Of a stretch of DNA of 38,597 nt, positions 1-28,625 are shown one piece after another; the first letter of the stretch is position 1, and each line of letters starts with the position of its first letter. The notes under the pieces are model-generated. The model ran no database searches, was not told the origin of the DNA, and saw only the letters and a list, made by a program, of their open reading frames with translations. The DNA comes from Akkermansia muciniphila (GTDB lineage: Bacteria > Verrucomicrobiota > Verrucomicrobiia > Limisphaerales > BJHT01), in NCBI GenBank assembly GCA_945861535.1, contig CAMAUZ010000076.1, forward strand, positions 1 to 38,597, read 5' to 3'. The position numbers were made by a program, and so were the translations under genes.

Positions 1-1620
1 CCGGAGCGCGACTTCGTTGACTACGCTTCGGCGCATCGTGTGGGTGAGGCCGAAATCGAATTCCTCTTGCGTAACGCGTCCACCATCGCCGGCGCGATGA
101 TCAAGCGGCATTCCGTTAGCCACGGCAGCTTCGGTGCCTACATCAAAGAGTTGGCGACGGTGATCAAGGCGGGTGGGGCCGCCACTGCGGAGCAGGCGGA
201 CGCCGCGCTGGCTCCGGCCTTCGAGGGACTCTTTCAACGGCCGCCGACGGCCGCCGAGGCCGGGCGTTACGGCGCTTTTTTCCGGGACAACGTCGCGAAA
301 CTGGGCGGCCCGGACGCGGTCGGGCAACTGCTCACCGCCCTGCTGTGCAACACGGAATTGATTCACCGGGTCGAGATTCCAGCCGGGCCGGGGAACCGTC
401 TCGCGCCGCGCGATCTGGCGCGGACGATCGCGTTTGCACTGACGGACGACGGGCCGGATACGGCGCTCGCCACGGCCGCCGCAGAGGGAAAACTCGCCAC
501 GCGCGAGGAGGTGGCGGCGCAGGTGAAACGCATGCTCGACGACGCCACGATCGCGAAGCCGCGTGTGCTGCGGTTTTTCCGCGAATACTTCGCCTACGCA
601 TCGGCCCCGGGCGTGTTCAAGGATGAGGTGACGCTGTTCCAGGAACTCGCCGTGCGCGGTGCGCGGGGCTGGAATGCGGACTTTTTCGTCAGCGACGCCG
701 ATCGGGTCGTGCTCGCCGCGCTCGCCGAGGACAAGGAGGTGCTGCGGAGCCTGCTGACGACGACGAAAACCCATGCGCTCACGGTGGACCCGCTATTTCA
801 GATTCACACCAAGAAGGACGCTTACCGGCAGCAGAAGAAGACCTTCGAGGCCGACGAGCAAACGGCCATGAAAATCTATGGCGTCTCCATCCCGACCCGC
901 CCGGACTGGGATCCCCATCGCCTCTACGACCTCCCGCCGGAGCACCGGCTCGGCTTGCTGACGCATCCCGCGTGGCTGGTGGCCCAGTCGGGCAACTTCG
1001 ACAACCACGCCATCCATCGCGGGCGCTGGATTCGCGAGAAGCTGCTTGGCGGAAAAATCCCCGAGGTGCCGATCACCGTCAATGCCATGCTGCCCGATGA
1101 GCGGCATCGCACGCTGCGCGACCGGATGCGGGTGACCCGCGAGGAATACTGCTGGACCTGCCACAAGCAGATGGACCCGCTCGGGCTGCCCTTCGAGCAA
1201 TTCGATCACTTCGGTCGTTTCCGCACGGAGGAGATGGTGGTGGACCCGGAGGCGACGTCGGCCAAAAAGAACCTCAAGAAGGACGGCATGCCTTGGAAAA
1301 CGTTGCACAAGCAGGTGCCGCTCGAGACGACCGGCGAAGTGAGCGGCAGCATCGATCCATCGCTCAATGGCCCGGTGAAGGATCCATTCGAGCTGATCCG
1401 GCGGCTCGCGGCGTCCGAGCATGTCGAGCAGGTTTTCGTGCGGCACGCGTTCCGCTATTTCCTGGGCCGCAACGAAACGCTCGCCGACGGACCGGCCCTC
1501 GTCGCAGCCCATCAGGCCTATCGGAAAAACGGCGGCAGCATGAGGGCGCTGGTCACCTCACTGCTCAGCTCGGATCCCTTTTTGTTTCGCACCCATCCAT
1601 CAGAAAAAACATCACCATGA
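1..1620 (+). CDS. DUF1592/DUF1588/DUF1585 cytochrome-like protein (5' partial)
   Basis: The frame is open from base 1, so the true start lies outside the window; the first possible internal start is GTG at 40. The visible part covers the middle and end of a planctomycete/verrucomicrobial multidomain protein. A DUF1592-like region comes first (LFQRPPTAAEAGRY, then DLARTIAFALTDD). A DUF1588-like region follows (GLLTHPAWLVAQS, HRGRWIREKLLGG) with a heme-type CWTCH at about codons 384-388 followed by KQMDPLGLPFEQFD. A DUF1585-like end follows (RYFLGRNETLADGPALVAAH). These proteins are exported and presumed to bind c-type heme; their substrate is unknown, though a role in polymer breakdown is often suggested. 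The stop codon overlaps the next start as ATGA, so the gene is translationally coupled to the DUF1552 gene. Family assignment is firm; function is not. Confidence 0.9.
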   Translation, partial: PERDFVDYASAHRVGEAEIEFLLRNASTIAGAMIKRHSVSHGSFGAYIKELATVIKAGGAATAEQADAALAPAFEGLFQRPPTAAEAGRYGAFFRDNVAKLGGPDAVGQLLTALLCNTELIHRVEIPAGPGNRLAPRDLARTIAFALTDDGPDTALATAAAEGKLATREEVAAQVKRMLDDATIAKPRVLRFFREYFAYASAPGVFKDEVTLFQELAVRGARGWNADFFVSDADRVVLAALAEDKEVLRSLLTTTKTHALTVDPLFQIHTKKDAYRQQKKTFEADEQTAMKIYGVSIPTRPDWDPHRLYDLPPEHRLGLLTHPAWLVAQSGNFDNHAIHRGRWIREKLLGGKIPEVPITVNAMLPDERHRTLRDRMRVTREEYCWTCHKQMDPLGLPFEQFDHFGRFRTEEMVVDPEATSAKKNLKKDGMPWKTLHKQVPLETTGEVSGSIDPSLNGPVKDPFELIRRLAASEHVEQVFVRHAFRYFLGRNETLADGPALVAAHQAYRKNGGSMRALVTSLLSSDPFLFRTHPSEKTSP

Positions 1621-3041
1621 ACCCCAACATTGGCCGCCGCACTTTGCTCAAATCGCTGTCCGCCGGAGCCGGTGGACTGGCATTCCTGCCCCTGATCAAC
1701 AAATTGACCGCGCTGGAAGCGGGGACCTACAAGACCCCAAAGCGCGTGGTCTTCGTCATGTTCGGCAACGGCTTCCACGAAAAGGGCTCGGTGCCCCTTG
1801 AATTGCCCGCGCCGGGACTGGAAGGGAAGGACACGAAATCGTATCCGCTGAAGGCACTCACGCTGCCGTTCGACATCGAGCCCTTCACGCCGTGGAAGAA
1901 CCGCCTGACGATCGTCCACGGCCTGCGGTCCGGCCCGGTGCATCCCGATCACGGCGCCGGCTTCGGGGCGCTCGCGGCGGTCAATGTCGGCGTGGGTGAC
2001 GACAAGCGGCGCAACGTGGTGGCCGAGACCATCGACGCGGCGATCGCGCGCAAGCTGGGCGGCATTTTCCCGCTGCTGAACCTCGGCATCGATCCCGGGC
2101 AGCCGGCCACGAAAGCGATTCGCTGCTCCTCCGCCTGGGGACCGGGCCAGCCACTCGCGGCGCAATGCCGGCCGGAACTGGCTTACGAGTCGCTCTTCGG
2201 CGGCATCGGCGCGACGAAGAACGACTTCGCGCTTCGCACGAACCTGCTCGACCTGCTCAAAGGCGACGTCAAGGCGCTCCGCTCGCAACTGCGCGGAACC
2301 GAATTGACGCAGCTCGACTATCAGATCGATGCGTTCGAGTCGCTCGGCCGCCGCGAAGCCCAGCTCGCCAAAATGTTCGACCAAGGCTTGCTGTCCAAGG
2401 CCGCGCCCAAACTGCCGACGCCGTATCCCGTCAAGTTTACCGACACGGTGACGGCCCAGTTCGACATCGCGGCGTCGGCGATCGTCACGGGACTGACCAA
2501 TGTGGTCACCATCACCTCCGAGCTTTGCACCGTCCGCGGCAACTACACCGGCATCTCCGACATGGGAACGCACGGGGTGGGCCACAACGAGACGGACGTG
2601 AAGCTGAATCTCACCGGCCTGGACATTTTGCCGAAAGTGCGGCGGCACATGGCCGAGCGCACCGCCGCGCTGCTCCAGCGGCTCGCGGAGATGCCCGAGG
2701 ACGGCGGCACGATGCTCGACAACACGCTGGTCGTCTTCATGAGCGACAGCGCGAACCGCCAGCACACCCACGGCGAGAACTGGCCGTTCGTCCTCCTGGG
2801 CAATCTCGGCGGACGCATCAAGACCAACCAGTTGGTCGTCTATCCGATCAAAACGGACAGCCCGACTTACAGCGGCACCCAGAACCGCATCATGACCGCG
2901 GCGGCGGAGAATCCGACGCTCAACGCCTTCTACAACACGCTCCTCCACGCCGTCGGCGCCCCGCGCGACCACTTCAACCTGGTCGGCCCCGACCAGAAGA
3001 ACCCCGTCCTGGCCGGCCCGTTGCGGGAACTGCTGGTGTGA
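1617..3041 (+). CDS. DUF1552 Tat-exported protein
   Basis: A 474-residue protein starting at the ATG that overlaps the upstream stop (ATGA). The N-terminus has a twin-arginine signal (NIGRRTLLKSLSAGAGGLAF), so it should be exported folded. The body matches DUF1552: a VVFVMFGNGFH strand, a VHPDHGAGFG segment, the SELCTVRGNYTGISDMGTHG region, and a late MSDSANRQHTHGENWPFVLLG segment recalling the metal-binding region of the related alkaline-phosphatase-like DUF1501 proteins. DUF1552 genes are usually found directly after DUF1592/1588/1585 genes, as here, which suggests the two products act together in the periplasm. The reaction is unknown. A longer frame running back to 1293 exists but overlaps the upstream gene heavily and lacks the signal sequence at its start. 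Confidence 0.9.
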   Translation: MNPNIGRRTLLKSLSAGAGGLAFLPLINKLTALEAGTYKTPKRVVFVMFGNGFHEKGSVPLELPAPGLEGKDTKSYPLKALTLPFDIEPFTPWKNRLTIVHGLRSGPVHPDHGAGFGALAAVNVGVGDDKRRNVVAETIDAAIARKLGGIFPLLNLGIDPGQPATKAIRCSSAWGPGQPLAAQCRPELAYESLFGGIGATKNDFALRTNLLDLLKGDVKALRSQLRGTELTQLDYQIDAFESLGRREAQLAKMFDQGLLSKAAPKLPTPYPVKFTDTVTAQFDIAASAIVTGLTNVVTITSELCTVRGNYTGISDMGTHGVGHNETDVKLNLTGLDILPKVRRHMAERTAALLQRLAEMPEDGGTMLDNTLVVFMSDSANRQHTHGENWPFVLLGNLGGRIKTNQLVVYPIKTDSPTYSGTQNRIMTAAAENPTLNAFYNTLLHAVGAPRDHFNLVGPDQKNPVLAGPLRELLV

Positions 3042-3244: not shown

Positions 3245-4816
3245 ATGAAAGCGAACGCCATGAAACCCAGTCTCGCACTTTTCGCCGCCCTGCTGCTCGC
3301 GCCGCTGGCCGGACTAACTGCCGCCGCGCCTCCCAAACCCAACATCGTCTTCATCTACGCCGACGACTGGGGCTGGGGCGATCTGTCCTGTCACGGCAAC
3401 ACGTGGCTGAAAACTCCTCGACTCGACAAGCTGGCCAGTGAGGGCATTGATTTTCAGCAGTTTAATGTGCTCAGTCCGATCTGCTCGCCCAGTCGTGCGG
3501 CGGCCCTGACGGGGCGTTTTCCGGGTCGCTTCGGAATCAACACGGTCTTCGGTGTCGCCAAGCCTCCGGAGATGCCGGACTGGTTGGACCCCAAGGCACC
3601 CACGACACCACGCTTGCTCAAAGCAGCGGGCTATCGCACGGGGCACTTTGGTAAATGGCATCTGGGGGAAGGGAAACCGACCATGGCGGACTACGGCTTT
3701 GACGAGTCGGCGGTCTATCACGGGCCGGGGCCGAAAGTCGGACCGTATGGCAACGATATTCCCAATCAGGCAGTGAAGTTCATCGAGGCGAACAAAGACC
3801 GTCCGCTCTGCGTGAACGTGTGGCTGCATGAGAGTCACCTGGCCCATAGCCCGTCGGACGAATCCATGGCGCGGTGGAAACATCTCGACCCCCGGCAACA
3901 GGTTTATGCGGCCGTCATCACCGACGGCGACAACAAGGTCGGCATGATCCTCGATGCGCTGGAGCGGTGCGGAATCGCGCAGAATACGCTGGTGGTATTT
4001 TCCAGCGATAACGGCCCTGCAAAACTCAAGGAGGACGACAAAGGCGAACCCGGCAAGTATCGCAGTCACTACAATGTCGGTGAAACCGGCGGTCTGCGGG
4101 GACAGAAAACCAGTCTCTTTGAAGGCGGCGTGCGCGTGCCGTTCATCGTGCGGTGGCCGGGCCATGCTCCGGCTGGCTTGAAAAATGACGCCACCGTTCT
4201 GACGGCGGTGGATTTGCTCCCCACCTTCTGCGCCGCCGCCGGAGTCACCCCGCCGACCGATGCCAATGGCGACGGCGAAAATATGCTCCCGGCACTCAAG
4301 GGCGAACCCTTCCTGCGCACCCGCCCCATTTTCTGGCGGATCAACGGCAACAAAAAGGACCCCAACTTCTGGCCGGATCTGGCGGTTCGCGACGGGGATT
4401 GGAAACTGGTGACGACCTTCGACGGCCAGAAGCTCGAACTGCACGATCTCAAGGCGAATCGCATCGAAGACGCTGGCAAGGACGCCGCCGAAGCGCACCC
4501 GGAAATCACCCAGCGCCTGGGCAAACTCATTCGTGATTGGTATGCGACGCTGCCCACCAAAGCAGATCCAGACTGTTTGGCAAAACCACAAGAGAGCGAG
4601 CCGAAGAAGCGCTTGGAAAAGGCCGCGCCCAAATCTGAAGCTCCCGCTAAAGACCGCATCCAGCCACAACCGCCCCGCCCTGGCAAACCCGGCTCACAGC
4701 GACTTTCCCGACCGCAGCCAATTTCCAAGGGGGAGGTCAGGATGTCTGAGGCTTTGGAGCAGGAACTCGCAGCGGCTCGCGCCCGGCTCGCGCCACCGCG
4801 TTCGGCAGGGGATTGA
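3245..4816 (+). CDS. secreted sulfatase (formylglycine type) with long C-terminal tail
   Basis: A 523-residue type I sulfatase. A signal peptide (residues 1-28) ends near LTAAA. The N-terminal metal site is D40-D41 in FIYADDWGWGD, and the formylglycine signature is CSPSRAAALTGR with C80 as the residue to be oxidised. Further conserved blocks are GKWHLG, VFSSDNGPA and the substrate-side H in VWLHESH. The product should hydrolyse sulfate esters of polysaccharides or small molecules outside the cytoplasm. The catalytic fold appears complete by about residue 450; the last ~70 residues are rich in Pro, Lys and Arg, unlike the enzyme core. Inside that tail, ATG 4742 (codon 500) is preceded by GGGGGAGGTC, a strong ribosome-binding-like sequence. 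The stop overlaps the start of the PIN gene (TTGA). No sulfatase maturase is in the window. Confidence 0.92.
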   Translation: MKANAMKPSLALFAALLLAPLAGLTAAAPPKPNIVFIYADDWGWGDLSCHGNTWLKTPRLDKLASEGIDFQQFNVLSPICSPSRAAALTGRFPGRFGINTVFGVAKPPEMPDWLDPKAPTTPRLLKAAGYRTGHFGKWHLGEGKPTMADYGFDESAVYHGPGPKVGPYGNDIPNQAVKFIEANKDRPLCVNVWLHESHLAHSPSDESMARWKHLDPRQQVYAAVITDGDNKVGMILDALERCGIAQNTLVVFSSDNGPAKLKEDDKGEPGKYRSHYNVGETGGLRGQKTSLFEGGVRVPFIVRWPGHAPAGLKNDATVLTAVDLLPTFCAAAGVTPPTDANGDGENMLPALKGEPFLRTRPIFWRINGNKKDPNFWPDLAVRDGDWKLVTTFDGQKLELHDLKANRIEDAGKDAAEAHPEITQRLGKLIRDWYATLPTKADPDCLAKPQESEPKKRLEKAAPKSEAPAKDRIQPQPPRPGKPGSQRLSRPQPISKGEVRMSEALEQELAAARARLAPPRSAGD

Positions 4817-5217
4817 TCCTCGAGACTTCGCTGCTGGTGGCGCACGAACGACGGAAGTTCGACCTGCCCGCCTTCCTGCTCGCCCACGGTGACGAACCCG
4901 TTGCCATCGCCGCCATAACCTACTCCGAAGTGCTACATGGTTGGCATCGCGCCACCGACCCCAAGATCAAGTCCGAGCGTGGACTGTACGTCGCCGGAGT
5001 GAGGCGGGATTACACGATCATCTCGTTCGCCGAGGCGCAGGCGAAACACCATGCGCGAGTCTGGGCGGACTTGGAAACGGGCGGTCTCCTCATCGGCGCG
5101 CATGACCTGCAAATCGCCGCGACGGCGTTGAGTCTGGGCTATGCGGTGGCGACGCTGAACGCGCGGGAGTTCGCCCGCGTGCCTGGGTTACAGGTGGTTC
5201 GAGTGGAGCGGGGATAA
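4813..5217 (+). CDS. VapC-like PIN-domain protein
   Basis: A 134-residue PIN-domain ribonuclease-like protein. The start is TTG at 4813, overlapping the sulfatase stop (TTGA); no ATG or GTG exists further upstream before an in-frame stop at 4747. It begins MILETSLLVAHERRKFDLP, which aligns with the usual LILDTSLLIAAER start of this VapC/FitB group, except that the first catalytic Asp is Glu. Other PIN acidic positions are kept: the E in YSEVLHGWHRA, the D in IGAHDLQIAATAL, and the late TLNAREFARVPGL block. The family normally cleaves RNA and pairs with a small antitoxin encoded just upstream; no complete antitoxin is present here. The gene may be an orphan or decayed toxin. Family call is good; activity is uncertain because of the D-to-E change. 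Confidence 0.75.
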   Translation: MILETSLLVAHERRKFDLPAFLLAHGDEPVAIAAITYSEVLHGWHRATDPKIKSERGLYVAGVRRDYTIISFAEAQAKHHARVWADLETGGLLIGAHDLQIAATALSLGYAVATLNAREFARVPGLQVVRVERG

Positions 5218-5497
5218 GGATGTGCGCCGAGATGTTTCAGGTTCACTTCGCCATGAGGGTGTTTTTCAACCGCGTTCTCAAGACATCTCCGGCCCGCGCA
5301 ACCGGTCCCTGCCAGCGCTGAACTGGTCGGCCGTGATGCTCAGACGCTGGCGGATGGAGGCGTGGCGGCTCGTGGTTTGATGGTTGTTCGTCGTGCTGAA
5401 GGCGCGGCGTTCTGGCCGCGTTGAAAGCCGTTTCGACCAGCAGCACGGAGGGTGCTTGAGCTTGCCCCGCCCGCTGTCTGACGAGTAGGATTCGCTC

Positions 5498-18342: not shown

Positions 18343-19224
18343 CTACTCGCGCCGGAGTTGCAGGCGGAAGAAGCCCCGCGGGGCCATGGAAACATTGAAG
18401 CGGTGCTCCACGTCCGCGACCGGGCTGGGGCTGGTGAGTTCCTCGCCGGCCGTCCACGGGCCGCGGATCGTCGGGGCGCTTTGGATCACGTAGCGGCGGC
18501 CGGGCTCCATGGTGGAGAGGCGCACCGTCACGCTCGGCAGCCGGGCCGTCTGGATGGCGAAGCGGAACGCCGATGCCGGATCGCGCGGATCGGTGAGCGC
18601 GAGGAACTCCAGGGCGTTGTTGCGCCCGTCGCCATCCGGATCCGCGCTGGCCACGCCGAGCGGGTCGCCGGTGCCGAAGTGCCGCACCTGCCAGTCGTCG
18701 TCCACGCTGTCGCCCGCGTAGAGGCCGAAGTTGTCGGCCAGCGTGTTCAGCACGGTCACGCCCACGTCGGCGGAGAGGCCGTGATACTCGCCGCGCAAGT
18801 TGAGCAACGCGCTTTCATACACGGGCTGCCCGCTGATGAGGCCCGCCGCGTCCACGATGGCCTGGCCGGTCGCGTTGGTGAAAAGCCACGTCACCGCGCT
18901 GCCGGGCACGGAGGCGAAAAGGTTGTCGTCCGTCGTGATGAGCGCGGTGGCTTGCAGCGTGCCGTTCTCCGCGACGAACTGCGCGCCCGCGCCGATGGAA
19001 AATGCCGCCTCGTCGTAGAGCCGTCCCGCGAAGCCCTGCCGCGCGACGACGACGTTGCTGGGCGATTCCGCGACGACTCCGCCGAGCGTGCCGATCTCGG
19101 AGACGATGCTCACATTCGCCGAAGTGACGCGCCCGCCGCCGCTGCCGACGGTGTGGGATAAAATGGCGACCGGCTCCGCGTGGGCGACGGCGGCGAGGGC
19201 GATGAGGATGAGTGGTGTTTTCAT
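18343..19224 (-). CDS. secreted protein with DxDGDG segment and FFRL-type C-terminus
   Basis: A 293-residue protein, last gene of the probable sigma/kinase operon. Residues 1-16 form a signal peptide (MKTPLILIALAAVAHA). The mature part is beta-rich (SIVSEIGTLGGVVAESPSN, ATALITTDDNLFASV). Near residue 190 is ADPDGDGRNNALEFLALTDP, a calcium-binding type segment very common in verrucomicrobial secreted proteins. The C-terminus (YVIQSAPTIRGPWT ... RGFFRLQLRRE) matches the module that usually follows it. It begins two bases after the stop of the 131-residue gene. It is probably a cell-surface or extracellular protein; no enzyme motif is visible. Confidence 0.8.
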   Translation of the reverse strand: MKTPLILIALAAVAHAEPVAILSHTVGSGGGRVTSANVSIVSEIGTLGGVVAESPSNVVVARQGFAGRLYDEAAFSIGAGAQFVAENGTLQATALITTDDNLFASVPGSAVTWLFTNATGQAIVDAAGLISGQPVYESALLNLRGEYHGLSADVGVTVLNTLADNFGLYAGDSVDDDWQVRHFGTGDPLGVASADPDGDGRNNALEFLALTDPRDPASAFRFAIQTARLPSVTVRLSTMEPGRRYVIQSAPTIRGPWTAGEELTSPSPVADVEHRFNVSMAPRGFFRLQLRRE

Positions 19225-19226
19225 GG

Positions 19227-19622
19227 CTACGCGCGGTGAAGTTCAAAAGGGCCGTTGCCCATTGCACCGTCGCACCACCAGCCTTGAATCCTGCCGGTGG
19301 GGAGTGCGTTCGGCGGCGTCTGCGTGAGGACGTGGTAGCCGCTCCACACCGCCACGTAGTTGTCGCCGGTTTGGAGGATGGAGATCGCGGTTTGCTCGTT
19401 GAGGTTGTAGGCCGCGCCGAGCGGGCGGGAGAGGGTGAAGACGCGGGCTTCGAGCCTGCCGATGTCCTCGCGCGTCGCGGTGAAAATCCCCGGCCTGTCG
19501 GGGTCGCTGTCGAATGTGATGGGGCCTTGCTCTACTAGGGCCGCTCCTCCGCCGCCGTGGCCCCACGAGAGGATCCATTTTCCAGCGAGTGCGAAGGGTT
19601 CGATGAATGTGGTCGTTGTCAT
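19227..19622 (-). CDS. small beta-rich protein of unknown function
   Basis: A 131-residue protein starting at ATG 19622. No family is recognised and no signal peptide is visible. It shows an ordered series of short strands: FALAGKWILSWGHGGGGAAL, GPITFDS, GIFTATRED, TAISILQTGDNYVAVWSGYH, GRIQGWWCDGAMGNGPFELH. The opening GKW and closing G-x-W-x-D...G-x-F-x-L resemble small beta-barrels of the lipocalin or avidin type, but this is only a resemblance. It lies between the large repeat protein (57 bp) and the secreted protein (2 bp), so it should be co-expressed with them. Confidence 0.65.
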   Translation of the reverse strand: MTTTTFIEPFALAGKWILSWGHGGGGAALVEQGPITFDSDPDRPGIFTATREDIGRLEARVFTLSRPLGAAYNLNEQTAISILQTGDNYVAVWSGYHVLTQTPPNALPTGRIQGWWCDGAMGNGPFELHRA

Positions 19623-19679
19623 GATGTTTGTTCTATTTGTTTGGTGTGTTTGTGCTGAGGAAAGGGTGCGAGGCGTGGG

Positions 19680-21584
19680 TCAGGGTTTGATGATGAGGAC
19701 GTTGAATTTGTGACCCGGGGTAATTGCGATGCCGTGCATGGTATCGGCCATTGAAAAAACGACCCACCTGTTGGCCGTGCCTCCTGGGAACGAACCGGCG
19801 GCGTTCGTGCGGTAGTAGACTCCGAAACGCTCCGGAATTCCCGATCCGTAGCTTGATCCGTCAGTGGACGCCCTCGCGTGGGCAGTGACGACGAGAATAG
19901 CATTCGGGGCACCGTTGCACATCGGGTGATCGATCTCTGACATACTAAATTCGAAGTTACTCGCCTCGGTCACCTCATGAATGAACGCCGCCGTCGGCGT
20001 GTTCACCCCCGCGCCGTCCACTCTGATCTGCCCGCCTCCGATACGCAGCGCCGTGCTCGTGGCCGCCTGCGTGAGCGAAACTCCGGCATGGCCAATGGCG
20101 ACGACACCGGCATCCGAGCCGAGGATGCCCGCCGCGCTGGTCGCGGTGTTTTGGCCCCACACACCTTTGCCGTTCGCGTGGACGCCATGAATGGCGGCTC
20201 CGGTTCCCGAAGCCAATTGACCGTAGACCGCATCCGTAGCACCGGCGCCCACAGCGGTGACAGGGCCATCCGCCGTCAGCCCCTTCGTCACGCGCACGCG
20301 CCCCTCGAAATATCCCGCGTGGCCGACCGTGTCGCTGTCGCCGTTGCTGCCATAGATGCCGGTGCCGTCCGTCGTGATGCCTGCCACACCATACCCGGAG
20401 GTGCTTGTGCCACGCGCGCCTTCGCTGCTCCCGACCGCTCGCACTCCATAAGCGCCGCCGGTGATGTAGGCACCCGTGCCGCCCGCCACCGAATTGAGAG
20501 CGCGCAGGCCGTATCCCCCTGCCGACAATGTCTCACCCCACAGGCCACTGCCCAAGCCGCTCGTCGAGGTCGCCAGACCGAACACGCCGCGCGCATTCAA
20601 GTCAGCCGAAGCCGTCTCGCCCCGCACGCCCGGCGCAATGCCCGTCGCCGCAGCGTGCACCCCGGCGACGCCGATGCCGGACGCTCCCGTTGCGATGCCC
20701 GTGAGGCCGACGCCAGCGGTGCCGGTCACCAGGCCCGACATGGCGAGGCCGTCTGCGGCGGTGTTTTGAATGTTGAAGGCGGAGCCGGAGAAGCTGCCCG
20801 TCCAGTCCGCGCCGAGGTGGTGGTGGTCGCTGCGCGTCGCGGTGTTCGCCACGCCGCTGCCGGCGAAGTTGAGCCTGAACTCCGTGCCCGCGAGCGACAG
20901 CCCCGCGCCCGCAGTGAAGAGCGTGTCGTTGTCCACCCCATCGGCGAAGCCGCCGGGGAGGCCCGCGAGATTTGTCCAGTTCACGGCTTTCCAGATCGCG
21001 CCGAAAGCGTCCGTGCTGAGAAACTCCCCTGGCGCGCTCAGGCTGAAATCAAGTTTCTGCAATGTCACCGAGCCGTTTACGATTTGGTTCGCGCCGACGG
21101 CATCCGCCGCGAGTTTTGCCGTGGTGATGGAACCGTCCGGCACACTCCCCGCCATCATGGCATAGCCAACGCTGGCGATGCGCTGGTCCGGCGTGAGGAG
21201 CTGCCAGCCGCCATTCGCCACACCCGCGTCAAACCACACCCGCAGCCGCACGTCCGCATTGGCAAAGACCGTCCTCGGGATCGGCGTCATGCCCGCCACG
21301 GTGTCGTCGCCGAGCAGCACGGAATAGAGGCCGTTGGCCACGGTAAGGATGATTCTCACGGTCGGCTCGTGATTTGGCCCGGTGGAATTTCCGTCGTTCG
21401 TCCAGAAGACGGCGCTGCCGTCACCGTTCACGAGCGCGAATTTGAATTCGCCCGGCCCGTTGACGAGCGTGCCGTTGAGCGAGACGCGGCCCTGGTAATG
21501 GATCATCTGTGGCACGGCCTGCACCGCCGTGACCAGGCCGAGGAGGAGGAGTGACAGGAGGGATTTCATGAGTGGTAGTTGCAT
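19680..21584 (-). CDS. large secreted repeat protein, tail-fibre-like
   Basis: A 634-residue protein. ATG 21584 is preceded by GGAGGCAGGGG, which favours it over ATG 21569. A signal peptide covers about residues 1-23. The N-terminal domain (QMIHYQGRVSLNGTLV ... NGLYSVLLGDD) is the type found at the start of many bacterial surface proteins. Next comes a linker with DGSITTAKLAADAVGANQI, typical of fibre proteins. About residues 280-500 hold many short Gly-rich repeats of form GVxG/GIxG (GVFGLATSTSG, GLWGETLSAGG, GIYGSNGD, GVWGQNTATS), expected to form a long beta-structure. The C-terminal ~115 residues form a separate domain (FSMSEIDHPMCNGAPNAILV ... WVVFSMADTM ... KFNVLI), resembling a domain that caps many such proteins. 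Likely displayed at the cell surface; no catalytic motif. Confidence 0.8.
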   Translation of the reverse strand: MQLPLMKSLLSLLLLGLVTAVQAVPQMIHYQGRVSLNGTLVNGPGEFKFALVNGDGSAVFWTNDGNSTGPNHEPTVRIILTVANGLYSVLLGDDTVAGMTPIPRTVFANADVRLRVWFDAGVANGGWQLLTPDQRIASVGYAMMAGSVPDGSITTAKLAADAVGANQIVNGSVTLQKLDFSLSAPGEFLSTDAFGAIWKAVNWTNLAGLPGGFADGVDNDTLFTAGAGLSLAGTEFRLNFAGSGVANTATRSDHHHLGADWTGSFSGSAFNIQNTAADGLAMSGLVTGTAGVGLTGIATGASGIGVAGVHAAATGIAPGVRGETASADLNARGVFGLATSTSGLGSGLWGETLSAGGYGLRALNSVAGGTGAYITGGAYGVRAVGSSEGARGTSTSGYGVAGITTDGTGIYGSNGDSDTVGHAGYFEGRVRVTKGLTADGPVTAVGAGATDAVYGQLASGTGAAIHGVHANGKGVWGQNTATSAAGILGSDAGVVAIGHAGVSLTQAATSTALRIGGGQIRVDGAGVNTPTAAFIHEVTEASNFEFSMSEIDHPMCNGAPNAILVVTAHARASTDGSSYGSGIPERFGVYYRTNAAGSFPGGTANRWVVFSMADTMHGIAITPGHKFNVLIIKP

Positions 21585-21633
21585 ATCACCCCTGCCTCCG
21601 CGCCGTCGGACGGCTTGTTACAAACGAAGTGAA

Positions 21634-24624
21634 CTATTTTTCCAAGATCACCACCGACTCGATCCCGGCCGCCGCCGCCGGCCACGGTTCGGGCGGGGGC
21701 GGATGGTGCGGCCAGTCGAGGGCGAGGGCGCGCAGTTCGCGGCGCAGCGACCACAAGTCCAGCCCGGCGGACTGGCTGAACAGCCAGCGGCTGTCGGGGC
21801 TGAAGGCGAACTGGCTGCCAGGGACAAAGCCATCGAACGTGACCAACTCGGCCAACGTGGTGGCCTCCAGCAGGCGCACGGGCGCGTGGTCATCCGTGAG
21901 CACGAGCAGGCGGCCATCGGGCGAGAAGACGGCCTGTCCCGGCGCACCTGAGGGCGCGCGGCGGGCCAGGCGGCGCTGCACGGCACCGGTGGCGGGATTC
22001 AGGAAGATGTATTCGCGGGCCGAACCGGCGACGAGGCTCTGGCCGTCGGGCGAGAAGGCGACCTGCGCGTGGATGTCCACGGCGAACTGGCGGCGTTGCG
22101 CGGGATCGTGCGCGGGCCAGAGCCACACGGCGGGCGCTTTCCACGCCCCGGCGGCCAGCCAGCGACCGTCGCGACTGACGGCGAGCCAGGTCAGCAACGC
22201 GGGCGCGGGAAAAATCTTCTCGCCCCCCGCGTCGGCGAAGCACCGCACTGCCGCGCCATCAATCCACCAGACGGCTTGGCCGCCCCGCACCGCCGAACCG
22301 GCGTCGCGATCCGGCGCTTCGCCGTGCGTCTGCGGCGGTCCGAGCACGAGTGCGCCGCCCTCCGTGCGCACCGGCCAGCGTTGGCAGGCGGTTTCGCCGC
22401 CGAGCAGGAGCGCGTCGCCGTCGAAGGCGGAGGAATGCGTGCGGCTGCCGGCGCGCGCCGCGAGCCAGCGGCCCGTGCGCCAGTCGTAGCACGCGAAACC
22501 GGAGCCGGTGCCCTGCACCAGCAGCCTTTGGTGGGCGTCGAGCTGGAGCGGCTCGCGCAAGCCCGCGCCCGGCGGCGGCGCAAATTCCCGCCAGCCGCCC
22601 GGCAGCGCGGTCGCCAGCAGCAGCACGTCGCCCGCGTAGCTGACGAGTCCCAGTCGGGTGCCGTCGCCGCTGAACTCCACCGGCACGCCGGCGGTGGCGA
22701 AGGTCATTTCCACCGCGCCGTTCGCGCTGTTCCAAAGCTTCGTCGTGCCGTCCCAGCTCGTGCTCGCCAGCCATTCGCCGGAAGGATGGAAGGCCAGTCC
22801 GTGAACGAGCGTCGCGTGGCCGCGCCGCTGGTGTCGGAGCGCGCCCGCGCGGAGATCCCACACCATCACCGCGCCGTCCCCGAAACCTGCCGCCAGCAGT
22901 TCGCCGCGATGATCGAGGGCAAAGCACGCCGGAATCGCGGGCAAGTCGAAGCGCTGTTCAGCGGCCCCGGTGGCGGAACTCCAGACTGTGATCGTCTTGT
23001 CCTTCGCCCACGCCAGCCGCTGGCCGCCTGCCTCCGCCTGCCCCCGGGGGAAGGAATTTTGGAACGGCACTTCGCGGAGCAATCGCCCGCTGCGGGCCTC
23101 GAACTCGCCGAGGACGCCGCGCGCCAGAATCACCCGGAGGCTCGCGCCCGCGGCGCGAATCGTGGCGACGGCTCCGGCGATCTCCCAGAGCTGCCGCCCG
23201 CGGCGCCAATCCCACCCCCGCACAACATTGTCGCTGGCCTGGCTGACGAGCAGGTCCGGGCCGTGGAAATGCGCCCAGCGCCGGGTGCCGAACGCGGCGG
23301 GCGACTGGAAGGTTGCCACGCTCGCGCCGGTGTGACTGTCGAGCACCACGAGCTTGCCCGCGGCCTCGCACCGGACGGCGTGTTCCAGCGCGGGCGAGAA
23401 ATCCGTCGGCGCATCCGTTTCGAGCAGGCCGAATGCGCCTTGCGTGACGACGCGCACATCGGGCAACCGCAGCGCCGCCGCTGCGACGCGGCGGGCCTCC
23501 GGGGAAGGCGTGCGGGCGGCGACCTGGCGCACGAGCGCGAGCGTTTCGAGCCGTTGCCCCGCGCGTTCGCTCCGCACCAGCGCGTCCGCCTGGGCGAGGA
23601 GCGCCCCGCTTTCCGCCAGTTCGGCCCGCACGCGCAAGGCCTGCTCGCGCCCGTGCTGCCAGCGCGCGAACGCCCCCGCGCCCAGCGCCGCCAGCGCCAC
23701 GCCCACGAGCAGTGCGGCGGCGCGGCGCGCGACCCGGAGCTGGCGTTCGAGGCCGCGCGCCCGGCGGAGTGAACGGCCCGCCTGGAGCTGCGCGAGGTCG
23801 GCGGCCAGTTCGTCCGCGCTGGCGTAGCGCCGCGCGGGATCGGCCTCGCACGCGCGCAGCAGCACTTCATTGAACTCCAGCGCCACCGCGTCGCCCACCC
23901 ACGCCGCCGGGATGGCGGGGAAGTCGTGGCGGTCTTTTCCCGTCGCGATTTCGTAGAGCACCTTGCCCAGTCCGAACACGTCGGCCTGCGGCCTCCCCGT
24001 GCCTTCGCGCGGGACGAAGCCCTCGGTGCCGACCACGCTGCGCACTTCGCCCGCCAGCCCCACGAGGCCGATGTCCGCGAGCTTCGCGCGGCCGTTCACG
24101 AAGATGATGTTCGAGGGTTTGAGGTCGCGGTGCACCAGCCCGTGCCGGTGCAGATGCGCCAGCCCCTGCGCGAGGGCGAGGCCGATGGCGGTGCAGTCGG
24201 CGATGGGGAGCGCGCCCCGCGCCGCTTCGGAGCGGAGGGTGCGCGGCAGGTAGCTGGCCACGTCGGCGGGTTCAGGGTCCACGGCATCCGCCAGCTCCAT
24301 CACGTAGTGGAATTGTGCGCGGTCGTCGCCCCAGCCCGCATGGAGCACTTGCATGAGCGCGTCATGCGTGCGGGAGACCGGCTCGAAGCGGCAGATGCCT
24401 TCGAACTCGCGCTCGAATGGCCGCGCCTCGTGGAAATCCTCGCGCCGAACAATTTTCACCGCGCGCAGCGCGCCGAGCGCCGTACGCGCGAGCCACACCT
24501 CGCCATAGCTCCCACGCCCGATGCGGCGCAGCAGGTCGTGGCCGGCCACGGGCGGGGCCGCGCGGTCGGCGGGCGCGTGGCGGGCAGCGTCGGCTTCGAG
24601 CCGGGTGGCGGAGGCGGTGGGCAT
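21634..24624 (-). CDS. serine/threonine protein kinase with WD40 repeats
   Basis: A 996-residue membrane-anchored kinase. The kinase domain spans about residues 27-285: glycine loop IGRGSYGEVWLA (35-46), K57 in AVKIV, catalytic loop HRDLKPSN (165-172), and the magnesium loop, which reads DIG (184-186) instead of DFG. The activation segment has GTEGFVPREGTGRPQADVFG. A single transmembrane helix lies at about 302-321 after a basic stretch. The remaining ~650 residues are WD40-type repeats (FDLPAIPACFALDHRGELLA, MVWDLRAGALRHQRRGHA, GLAFHPSGEWLASTSWDGTT), so a large propeller probably faces the periplasm. The ECF sigma gene is 51 bp upstream and the repeat protein 49 bp downstream, all on one strand. 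Confidence 0.93.
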   Translation of the reverse strand: MPTASATRLEADAARHAPADRAAPPVAGHDLLRRIGRGSYGEVWLARTALGALRAVKIVRREDFHEARPFEREFEGICRFEPVSRTHDALMQVLHAGWGDDRAQFHYVMELADAVDPEPADVASYLPRTLRSEAARGALPIADCTAIGLALAQGLAHLHRHGLVHRDLKPSNIIFVNGRAKLADIGLVGLAGEVRSVVGTEGFVPREGTGRPQADVFGLGKVLYEIATGKDRHDFPAIPAAWVGDAVALEFNEVLLRACEADPARRYASADELAADLAQLQAGRSLRRARGLERQLRVARRAAALLVGVALAALGAGAFARWQHGREQALRVRAELAESGALLAQADALVRSERAGQRLETLALVRQVAARTPSPEARRVAAAALRLPDVRVVTQGAFGLLETDAPTDFSPALEHAVRCEAAGKLVVLDSHTGASVATFQSPAAFGTRRWAHFHGPDLLVSQASDNVVRGWDWRRGRQLWEIAGAVATIRAAGASLRVILARGVLGEFEARSGRLLREVPFQNSFPRGQAEAGGQRLAWAKDKTITVWSSATGAAEQRFDLPAIPACFALDHRGELLAAGFGDGAVMVWDLRAGALRHQRRGHATLVHGLAFHPSGEWLASTSWDGTTKLWNSANGAVEMTFATAGVPVEFSGDGTRLGLVSYAGDVLLLATALPGGWREFAPPPGAGLREPLQLDAHQRLLVQGTGSGFACYDWRTGRWLAARAGSRTHSSAFDGDALLLGGETACQRWPVRTEGGALVLGPPQTHGEAPDRDAGSAVRGGQAVWWIDGAAVRCFADAGGEKIFPAPALLTWLAVSRDGRWLAAGAWKAPAVWLWPAHDPAQRRQFAVDIHAQVAFSPDGQSLVAGSAREYIFLNPATGAVQRRLARRAPSGAPGQAVFSPDGRLLVLTDDHAPVRLLEATTLAELVTFDGFVPGSQFAFSPDSRWLFSQSAGLDLWSLRRELRALALDWPHHPPPPEPWPAAAAGIESVVILEK

Positions 24625-24675
24625 GATGGCGCGGCTGTATCTACCGGCTGTATCCGTGCGCGGCGCGGGGTTGTT

Positions 24676-25284
24676 TCAACGATTCGCTTCGGCCTCCAGG
24701 CGGCGGATTTCCTTGGCGAGGAGCTTGGCGACGCGATGCCGGGTCACGCGGACGTTGAGGTTGGAGAGGTTCAGCGCGCGCGCGACCGCGGCGATGGGCA
24801 GGCCCTGGTTCACGCTCAGGTCGAAAATCTGGAACTGCCGCGGCTTCACCTTTTCCTTCAGCCGCGCGACCGCCGTGTCGAGCAGGCTGCGCCGCCATTC
24901 CTCGTCCCACAGTTGCTCGAGGTCCGCCGGCACGGCGGTCGCGTTGCTCTCCCCCTCGCCGGTCGCGCTGGGGAGACGGCAGCCCTTGCGCCGCTGAAAA
25001 TCCACGACCCGCGAATGGATGACGAGCATGAGCCACGCCTTGAACGAGCCGTTCACCGGCTCATAGACAAAGCCGCGCATCTTCTTCGCCACGCTCACGA
25101 CGATCTCCTGCACGACATCCTCCGCCTCGTCCCGTCGCAGTCCGTAGCGCTGGGCGGTGTTGAAAATGAAGCGGCTGTATGTGTCAAAAAACTCGCGCCA
25201 GCCACCCGCGTCGCTCCAGTGGCTCAACCGGGCGAGCAGGCTGCGCCGCGTGGGGAGGAACTCGTCGGGATTCTGATCGGGCAT
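24676..25284 (-). CDS. ECF-family RNA polymerase sigma factor
   Basis: A 202-residue sigma-70 family factor. Region 2 reads REFFDTYSRFIFNTAQRYG, LRRDEAEDVVQEIVVSVAKK and GSFKAWLMLVIHSRVVDFQR; region 4 reads KPRQFQIFDLSVNQGLPIAA and NLSNLNVRVTRHRVAKLLAK. The wording of region 2 is that of ECF factors common in Planctomycetes and Verrucomicrobia, often found beside serine/threonine kinases. The start is taken as ATG 25284 (MPDQNPDEFLPTRRSLLARL); the longer frame to 25350 adds a low-complexity leader. No anti-sigma factor is adjacent, so the kinase 51 bp downstream is the likely regulator. Confidence 0.93.
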   Translation of the reverse strand: MPDQNPDEFLPTRRSLLARLSHWSDAGGWREFFDTYSRFIFNTAQRYGLRRDEAEDVVQEIVVSVAKKMRGFVYEPVNGSFKAWLMLVIHSRVVDFQRRKGCRLPSATGEGESNATAVPADLEQLWDEEWRRSLLDTAVARLKEKVKPRQFQIFDLSVNQGLPIAAVARALNLSNLNVRVTRHRVAKLLAKEIRRLEAEANR

Positions 25285-25332
25285 CGCCACAGCGTGGGCA
25301 GTCCCGTGGGACGCGACAAGTGGTAAAGCCGC

Positions 25333-25389: not shown

Positions 25390-26148
25390 TCATCCCTCCC
25401 GTCCAAACCCCGCCGGCAGCGACAGCAACCGCCATTTCCCGATCTCCAAATCCCTCGCATCGATTTCACCAAAACTCCGCCGATGCAATCGCGTCACGTT
25501 GTAGCCTTGGCTCGCGAACATCCGTTTCACCTGATGAAATTTCCCCTCGACCAGATGCAGCCACGCCTCGCGCGGTGCGCGAATCTCCAGCGTCGCCGGC
25601 AGACACGCCTTCTCCTCGTCCTCCAACACCAGTTCGCCTGCCGCGAAAACTCCGACCAATCCCGGCTCCAGATCGCGATCCACCGTCACCTCGTAAATCT
25701 TCGTCACCTTGTGCTTGGGCGAGGTCCAGCGCTGCACCAACTCGCCAATGTCTGTCACGAGCAGCACGCCGGTGGTGTCCTTGTCGAGCCGCCCGATGGT
25801 CGTCACCGGCGGATTCCGTTTCAGCCAGCGCGGCGGGAGCAGCTCATAAACACTCGGCCCCTCCTTCGTTCCGTGCGAACACACGTAGCCCGCCGGCTTG
25901 TGCAACAACGCGAGAATTCCCTCGGGACATTCCACCGGCTCGCCTTCCACGAGCACGTCGCTGACCGCCACCTTCACATCCGCCGTCTTCGGTATTTCTC
26001 CCGCGACTGTGACGAGTCCGCGTTGCACCCACACGCGCGCCTGGCTGCGACTGCAGTAGCCGTAATTGGAGAGAATCTGGTCGAGCCGCCGCCGCGATTT
26101 GGTTTCTTGCACGCGCTCCTTGTAACGACCCGCGACGCACAACTCCAC
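25390..26148 (-). CDS. RsuA-family rRNA pseudouridine synthase
   Basis: A 252-residue pseudouridine synthase of the RsuA/RluB/E/F family. An S4 RNA-binding domain lies at about residues 18-68 (RRLDQILSNYGYCSRSQARV, RGLVTVAGEI). The catalytic domain has HKPAG (83-87), IGRLDKDTTGVLLVT with catalytic D122, and EGKFHQVKRMFASQGYNVTR, the family's C-terminal motif. It isomerises a uridine in ribosomal RNA; which one cannot be told from sequence alone. The start is GTG 26148; GTG 26109, thirteen codons further in, is a reasonable alternative since the S4 domain begins just after it. Confidence 0.92.
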   Translation of the reverse strand: MELCVAGRYKERVQETKSRRRLDQILSNYGYCSRSQARVWVQRGLVTVAGEIPKTADVKVAVSDVLVEGEPVECPEGILALLHKPAGYVCSHGTKEGPSVYELLPPRWLKRNPPVTTIGRLDKDTTGVLLVTDIGELVQRWTSPKHKVTKIYEVTVDRDLEPGLVGVFAAGELVLEDEEKACLPATLEIRAPREAWLHLVEGKFHQVKRMFASQGYNVTRLHRRSFGEIDARDLEIGKWRLLSLPAGFGREG

Positions 26149-26179
26149 CGCCTTCGCGCAGTGGAATCAGGGAAATGGA

Positions 26180-26299
26180 TTGGCAGGGGGATTTTAGGGC
26201 AAAGGAATGGAGGCAAAGGAATGGGGGAATGGAAATGGACGCGGGGAAGTTTCTCTCATTCCTTTGCCTCCATTCCTTTGCCCCAAATTCCCCTGCCAA
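26180..26299. repeat. GCAAAGGAATGGAG palindrome, copy 1
   Basis: Left arm 26180-26223 (TTGGCAGGGGGATTTTAGGG...) and right arm 26257-26299 are inverted copies over about 43 bases. Each arm contains two near-tandem units, GGCAAAGGAATGGA and GGCAAAGGAATG. It lies between the pseudouridine synthase and xylB. A second copy occurs at 28263-28347, on the other side of xylB. Confidence 0.85.
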
Positions 26300-28262: not shown

Positions 28263-28347
28263 ATTTTGCAAAGGAATGGAGGCAAAGGAATGAAGACAAA
28301 AAGTTTCCGCGTCCCCATTCCTTTGCCTCCATTCCTTTGCCCAAAAT
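28263..28347. repeat. GCAAAGGAATGGAG palindrome, copy 2
   Basis: Left arm 28263-28292 (ATTTTGCAAAGGAATGGAGG...) and right arm 28316-28347 are inverted copies, the left lacking two bases. The arms are nearly identical to those of copy 1 at 26180. The rest of the 717-bp gap between xylB and the DUF1501 gene (27909-28625) holds the palindrome at 28027 and no recognisable gene. Confidence 0.85.
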
Positions 28348-28625
28348 TTCCCTGCCCCATTGCCGTGCGCCGATCGGCACCGCGCCACTCGCTGCCAACG
28401 TCCGTCCCTCCGCCTGCCAAGTATGCTGGTCCCATGCTGCGCCGTTTCGATGCTCGGATGCTGCAACTTCGGGGGCGTGCGGAAGTCCCCGCCGCGCGGG
28501 AACCGCGCGTTGCACCACCCGCGCCCGGCTGCTAGCCTGCCTCCATCGCCGCCGAAATTTTCTGCCATTCAGTGCGGACGGCGGACTGCGGTGCGGATGA
28601 TGACGGCGCGGGCAAAACCGATTTT

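Follow-up and report, generated by a model that had tools for sequence, protein, structure and literature searches.

A sigma factor, a membrane kinase and a fibre-like surface protein encoded side by side raise the question of whether the three form one regulatory unit and, if so, which genes the sigma factor switches on. The locus considered here lies in a stretch of 38,597 nucleotides, hereafter the window, from an environmental member of the Verrucomicrobia, and it consists of five minus-strand ORFs. A first-pass annotation had read these ORFs as an operon in which a kinase-linked ECF sigma factor controls its own surface proteins. The pairing of such sigma factors with kinases is already known; the promoter results are what is new here.

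RESULTS

Gene order and domains of the locus

The five-gene layout, the ORF positions and the gaps of 51, 49, 57 and 2 bp were all as annotated, and the features are as follows.

24676..25284, minus strand: ECF sigma factor, 202 aa, with regions 2 and 4 and the acidic region 2.2 motif DEAED retained
24653..24678, minus strand: putative sigma promoter 5' of the kinase, TGAAACAA-N13-ACGGA, overlapping the sigma stop codon
21634..24624, minus strand: Ser/Thr kinase, 996 aa, with the kinase domain at about residues 32-290, a hydrophobic span at about residues 302-320 and a WD40 C-terminus
21597..21624, minus strand: putative sigma promoter 5' of the fibre, TTTGTAACA-N14-GCGGA, 10 bp past the kinase stop
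19680..21584, minus strand: fibre protein, 634 aa, with signal peptide, base domain, shaft and tip; start probably at 21569
21135..21512, minus strand: fibre base domain (residues 25-150), MAT-like, 83% identical to that of the relative's fibre
19683..20012, minus strand: fibre tip (residues 525-634), DUF7452, 44% identical to that of the relative's fibre
19227..19622, minus strand: 131-aa orphan gene, a probable lineage-specific rider, by eye without signal peptide
18343..19224, minus strand: secreted partner protein, 293 aa, with relatives mostly behind a fibre gene; the relative's copy is 82% identical

The identities given to the first two genes held. The sigma factor scored 76.7 bits against TIGR02937 (sigma70-ECF; cut-off, 42.9), which places it in the ECF family, and it has two regions, with 42.3 bits for Sigma70_r2 (cut-off, 24) and 23.8 bits for r4_2, slightly below the cut-off of 25.7. 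The kinase scored 76.9 bits for Pkinase and 61.7 bits for WD40, each above its cut-off, and has an intact catalytic loop (HRDLKPSN) and one strongly hydrophobic stretch C-terminal to the kinase domain, the single predicted membrane span. No anti-sigma gene lies within the unit, as had been noted, and the Ser/Thr kinase adjoins the sigma factor, so that the locus is an ECF-kinase pair. The neighbour upstream of the unit on the same strand encodes an RsuA-type pseudouridine synthase (25390-26148), and recF lies on the plus strand beyond the other end. The window also carries a dispersed repeat, 40-50 nt long and present in inverted copies (GCAAAGGAATGGAGGCAAAGGAATG), at 26158-26297 and 28268-28356; its hairpins flank the sugar-kinase gene on both sides, and it looks like an intergenic repeat element. 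A single transcription unit is not required, given the promoter-like sites before the kinase and the fibre.

Sigma-kinase pairs across the order

Kinase-linked ECF sigma factors are common in this group: of 196 genomes in the order, 108 contain a relative of the window sigma factor at an E value of 1e-12. Two collections yielded 99 nonredundant sigma loci, 90 of them with at least 1.5 kb behind the sigma gene; a kinase gene followed on the same strand within 1.6 kb in 58 of these 90 loci, compared to 4 of 626 control windows from the same loci, and the remaining 32 had none. The other genome of the host's family had no relative of the sigma factor or the kinase at the thresholds used. The catalytic-loop motif was matched in 47 of 51 partner kinases (counted by eye), and the acidic residues of region 2.2 were conserved in nearly all of 80 aligned sigma factors, the window's among them. 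In ECF43 (EcfP-type) sigma factors, as outlined in the account of PMC8999054, the DAED motif is replaced by uncharged residues and its charge is restored by a phosphothreonine, whereas the window sigma factor has DEAED; given that the acidic residues are retained, the ECF43 mechanism does not hold here as such. The kinase PknS is described as also phosphorylating its sigma factor in the linker that joins regions 2 and 4 (PMC13147305). The linker of the window sigma factor contains Ser and Thr residues, and one Thr is common to the sigma factor of the relative described below (by reading).

Close relatives of the window fibre stood behind a sigma factor of this type in the window and in that relative's genome only, with none in 79 other sigma loci at 1e-6. 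Fibre-linked sigma factors did not form one clade, being scattered on a quick tree (2 changes versus 2.5 when shuffled), and a crude detector revealed no clear excess of signal peptides in the genes after the kinase (11/38 versus 35/134). The window's genome has a second such pair, on contig C106 (locus L112, 6478-9631 and 14559-16274), with a 20.3-bit profile site after the kinase and an S74 gene about 5 kb off on the other strand. In another genome (G099, contig C141), an S74 gene (1536-1682, minus strand) and a sigma gene of this family (4614-5261, plus strand) are divergent and about 3 kb apart.

The cassette in a related genome

The relative (G196) is a metagenome-assembled genome, CAMDQC, labelled Prosthecobacter debontii, whose contig CAMDQC010000189.1 (locus L240) came from a scan of named genomes. 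This contig encodes a sigma factor 77% identical to the window's, followed by a kinase that extends to the contig end. A second contig of the same genome starts with the last 30 residues of the kinase and continues with fibre and secreted genes orthologous to those of the window, and the last 28 bases of one contig are the first 28 of the other (by eye). The flanks have changed: L240 has no match to rsuA or the sugar kinase, a divergent carboxylase-like gene (by reading) lies beside the cassette, and a cytochrome-like gene stands where the window has recF. The sigma factor, kinase, fibre and secreted protein are thus a conserved four-gene cassette in two genomes with different neighbours. The first-pass annotation had held that a lack of the downstream three genes behind the pair in every related genome would refute the unit; two of these three are kept behind the pair, and the 131-aa gene is missing.

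Identity to the relative was 83% in the kinase domain and 67% in the WD40 part. Along the fibre it was 83% at residues 25-150, 80% at 150-250, 44% at 250-350, 70% at 350-440, 30% at 440-525 and 44% at the tip, so that the tip and one stretch of the shaft are its fastest-diverging parts; a conserved base with a fast tip fits an adhesin. The secreted protein went from 97% at its start to 62% at its end. The second Met of the fibre, at 21569, is its more likely start, given that the relative's protein starts at that position. The element TTGTCGCG stands 35 bases 5' of the sigma ATG in both genomes (window, 25312-25319; L240, 4652-4659), and the remaining upstream DNA differs. We did not retain it as a meaningful element; TTGTCGC occurs in 3 of 129 sigma upstream regions.

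The fibre and its partner

The fibre has a DUF7452 domain at its C-terminus above the cut-off, a match to Bdello_MAT_N at its N-terminus below the cut-off and, between base and tip, a glycine-rich shaft. In the description of the mosaic adhesive trimer (MAT) fibres of Bdellovibrio (PMC10769870), a signal peptide is followed by a conserved base domain about 130 residues long, a shaft that is trimeric and tips that can be exchanged. Against NF053851, the window fibre gave an E value of 1.1e-7 and 31.8 bits, below the cut-off of 60, and 28 of 30 scanned base domains matched the Bdellovibrio MAT base model at an E value of 0.01 (best, 2.2e-10). The base domain was found in 71 of 196 genomes, and the family's ends differ on related bases: an S74 chaperone in the window genome's own paralogue (contig C51), kelch at locus L088 and DUF7452 in the window. 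The ends are thus exchangeable in the manner of MAT tips, and identity to the relative is 44% in the tip compared to 83% in the base. The fibre is probably a distant relative of the Bdellovibrio trimers. The sole PDB match of the fibre, to an antibody chain (E value, 0.075), is taken as chance.

In other genomes, the fibre belongs to a conserved cluster with an ATP-grasp protein, a PLP decarboxylase, a urea transporter-M23 peptidase fusion, two TPR proteins and often the secreted partner (L113, 7647-17089; L092, 3-10756; L074, L076, L083, L084, L086, L131, L135 and L150). The families found there led us to discard an initial guess, drawn from gene lengths, of a pilus/secretin system resembling Amuc_1098-1102.

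Inspection by eye gave the 293-aa protein a signal peptide, and its similarity to a pilus-like protein is weak. In 13 of 20 fetched loci, its near full-length relatives follow such a fibre gene in the same orientation. At L088 (genome G025), a sigma factor of another ECF type and a kinase precede the kelch-tipped fibre and the partner gene. The 131-aa gene fared differently. Its product had been called small and beta-barrel-like, for which we found no support: the structure model had a mean pLDDT of 43.6 and was not used, and the protein had no family in Pfam, NCBIfam or PHROGs and no PDB sequence match at an E value of 5. Nor does it behave as a conserved part of the unit, given that it is absent between the fibre and secreted genes in the relative's contig and that a search of 196 genomes of the order yielded its own genome and two partial matches, with no full-length relative. 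By this distribution, it appears to be a rider dispensable to the cassette.

Putative promoter sites before the kinase and the fibre

TGAAAG[AG] occurs in the sequence preceding the sigma gene in 44 of 99 loci, compared to 5.8 expected. The promoter sets combined genomes with named contigs, and redundancy was reduced by shared 12-mers (99 of 129 retained), with some related loci remaining, e.g., L098 and L103. Refinement on 64 of 97 loci, the window and L240 being left out, gave a two-part profile of TTTTGAAAGAATC and gCGAATA with a TG-to-CG distance of 21-23 bases.

This profile scored 18.6 bits 5' of the window's kinase and 11.1 bits 5' of its fibre. The corresponding scores in the relative were 18.0 and 8.9 bits, and the sequence and spacing of the fibre site are conserved there, the two genomes not being independent in this respect. 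Taken alone, the fibre site is modest, with 12 of 2082 windows of the 38.6-kb stretch scoring as high. Upstream of the sigma, 131-aa and secreted genes, the scores were -10.2, -6.9 and -4.2, respectively, and control of the sigma gene by its own product was thus not supported in this window. Separate promoters had been named as evidence against a single unit, and in form they exist, yet they resemble the sigma factor's own type. Across 63 pairs, only 3 had a site above 14.4 bits in the sigma-kinase gap, the window and L240 being two of them. Given that such gap sites are rare, the feedback promoter seems in this lineage to lie before the kinase, compared to before the sigma gene in relatives.

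The four sites of the window and its relative share AAC for AAG, CGGA for CGAA and one spacing, all absent from the family consensus. The window's genome (7.94 Mb) and that of the relative (5.2 Mb) each contain two matches to the pattern TGWAACAM-N13-RCGGA, all at the kinase and fibre sites, and a reversed pattern gave 1 and 0 matches, respectively; the pattern was built from the four sites that it finds, and only the absence of further matches is a test. This uniqueness argues for a putative private target over a wide regulon. Matches to sigma70 promoters and terminators in the unit were at chance level, and a hairpin in the kinase-fibre gap was rejected as a terminator (z-scores, -0.96 and -0.71). 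Judged by these sites, both the kinase gene and the fibre gene are most likely under the control of the sigma factor.

Matched sites behind other kinases

In 53 pairs, we searched a stretch of 170 bases from around the kinase stop onwards. Sites above 14.4 bits were found in 12 pairs and above 9.4 bits in 15, compared to 0.42% and 3.7% of shuffles and 0.67% and 1.9% of 743 downstream windows; 38 of the 53 had no site at 9.4 bits. In 13 pairs, the after-kinase site resembled the sigma promoter of its own locus more closely than those of others (summed similarity, 215 versus a permuted mean of 180.1; p=0.0001), with equal spacing in 11. Motifs shared by the two sites of a locus include GCTTAT at L237, GCGAAG at L215 and TTGTAAG at L098 and at L103.

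The genes after these sites mostly encode exported proteins. S74 fibres follow at L215, L219 and L237, and the further cargo includes a collagen-repeat protein (L109), Ig-like proteins (L098 and L103), propeller proteins (L110 and L189), a subtilase (L204) and a VWA/FGE protein (L234). Among the 15 cargo genes, that of L281 encodes an OsmC protein, and at L112 the ORF looks spurious, leaving no credible ORF. At L206, a kelch fibre follows a 24.8-bit site in a longer gap, for which a longer stretch was scored, outside the 53-pair count. An earlier scan had L206, L215 and L237 inside the training set; a leave-out profile gave 0.0035 for L206, 0.012 for L237 and >0.05 for L215. The site was absent from all 79 upstream regions of other fibre genes, and the gap 5' of the fibre at L088, behind the other sigma type, had a profile score of 4.7.

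DISCUSSION

We consider it fairly probable that the locus is a sense-and-display cassette, in which a kinase-activated sigma factor switches on the kinase, the fibre and the partner. The kinase's WD40 part would lie outside the inner membrane and register a signal, and the kinase would activate the sigma factor, probably via phosphorylation, for which a site in the linker, as in PknS/EcfK, may serve. Active sigma factor would then transcribe the fibre and partner genes and, as feedback, the kinase gene; the base of the fibre may anchor at the surface, and its fast-evolving tip may bind a target. What stands of the original idea of a sigma-kinase-surface-protein unit with sigma-controlled surface genes is the gene order, found in a second genome, and the sites 5' of the kinase and the fibre, whereas the 131-aa gene as a conserved part and self-control of the sigma gene find no support.

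ECF sigma factors are classically restrained by membrane proteins, and the same promoters and cargo could be served by a kinase that restrains its sigma factor, holding it at the membrane as an anti-sigma factor would, or that phosphorylates other proteins. The sigma factor keeps the acidic 2.2 residues that, in the account of PMC8999054, ECF43 sigma factors lack, and could be active unphosphorylated. We nevertheless regard this reading as unlikely, given that the kinase loop is intact, as in nearly all partners, and that the ECF-kinase pairs studied to date act by phosphorylation, as those sources describe them (PMC8999054 and PMC13147305). It is more doubtful still that the pair precedes an unrelated fibre-partner module by chance. 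Fibre and partner do often occur apart from a pair (most of the 13 partner loci with a fibre upstream have none), and pairs are mostly without a fibre; however, the order is preserved despite changed flanks, the promoter sites are conserved and matched, and fibres lie behind other pairs too, in other families (L206, L215, L219 and L237). A leftover phage tail fibre or a part of an injection machine, which the fibre architecture and the occurrence of S74 chaperones in phage tail spikes (PMC10769870) might suggest, is very improbable given the signal peptide and secreted partner, the ordinary chromosomal neighbours and the absence of PHROG hits among the three proteins at 0.1, and no virion or sheath genes were seen beside the fibre in the close relative in the stretches examined.

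Extending the preferred reading, that of a kinase-activated sigma factor, to the family is tentative, and we hold it somewhat less likely than not. Each Verrucomicrobia ECF-kinase pair might have co-evolved with a promoter code of its own, and a second, matched promoter might precede a single exported cargo that can be exchanged; fibre contact might be sensed by the kinase's WD40 part, closing a loop between display and encounter. If true, the pairs would be a modular class of private switches whose cargo is a trimeric fibre, a collagen-like protein, a propeller or a subtilase, and if each sigma factor reads its own promoter only, they would be a natural set of orthogonal switches. The readable promoter signature and the adjacent cargo make the sigma targets directly testable. 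The cassette is a candidate route for switching on adhesive fibres like those of predatory bacteria, and in related bacteria this arrangement probably serves different exported cargo. In the literature searched, we found no description of targets of these kinase-linked ECF sigma factors, nor of an ECF-kinase pair adjoined by a gene for an exported protein with a matched promoter, although the latter may exist in the ECF re-classification.

Among known systems, EcfP-PknT of Vibrio parahaemolyticus and EcfK-PknS of Xanthomonas citri, as described in PMC8999054 and PMC13147305, likewise combine an ECF sigma factor and a membrane Ser/Thr kinase in a unit without an anti-sigma factor. The window cassette differs from such ECF43 systems in keeping the acidic 2.2 residues, in its private promoter signature and in its putative target, a single adjacent fibre gene rather than a secretion system or drug-resistance regulon. 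ECF59, ECF61, ECF62 and ECF217, listed in PMC8999054 as kinase-linked groups of PVC bacteria, likewise have sigma-kinase synteny in the same superphylum; compared by description, they differ in that a matched second promoter and exported cargo do not form part of the account given there. The WD40 kinases of Planctomycetota, as presented in PMC11032199, have the same layout, with the kinase inside, a single span and the WD40 part predicted in the periplasm, whereas the window kinase is tied to one sigma factor and one cargo. The window fibre and its family resemble the Bdellovibrio MAT fibres in the variable ends, S74 among them, and the fast tip, and appear to do so in the signal peptide followed by a beta-rich base. 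The window fibre, a possible trimer that scores under the family cut-off, differs from them in adjoining a sigma-kinase pair.
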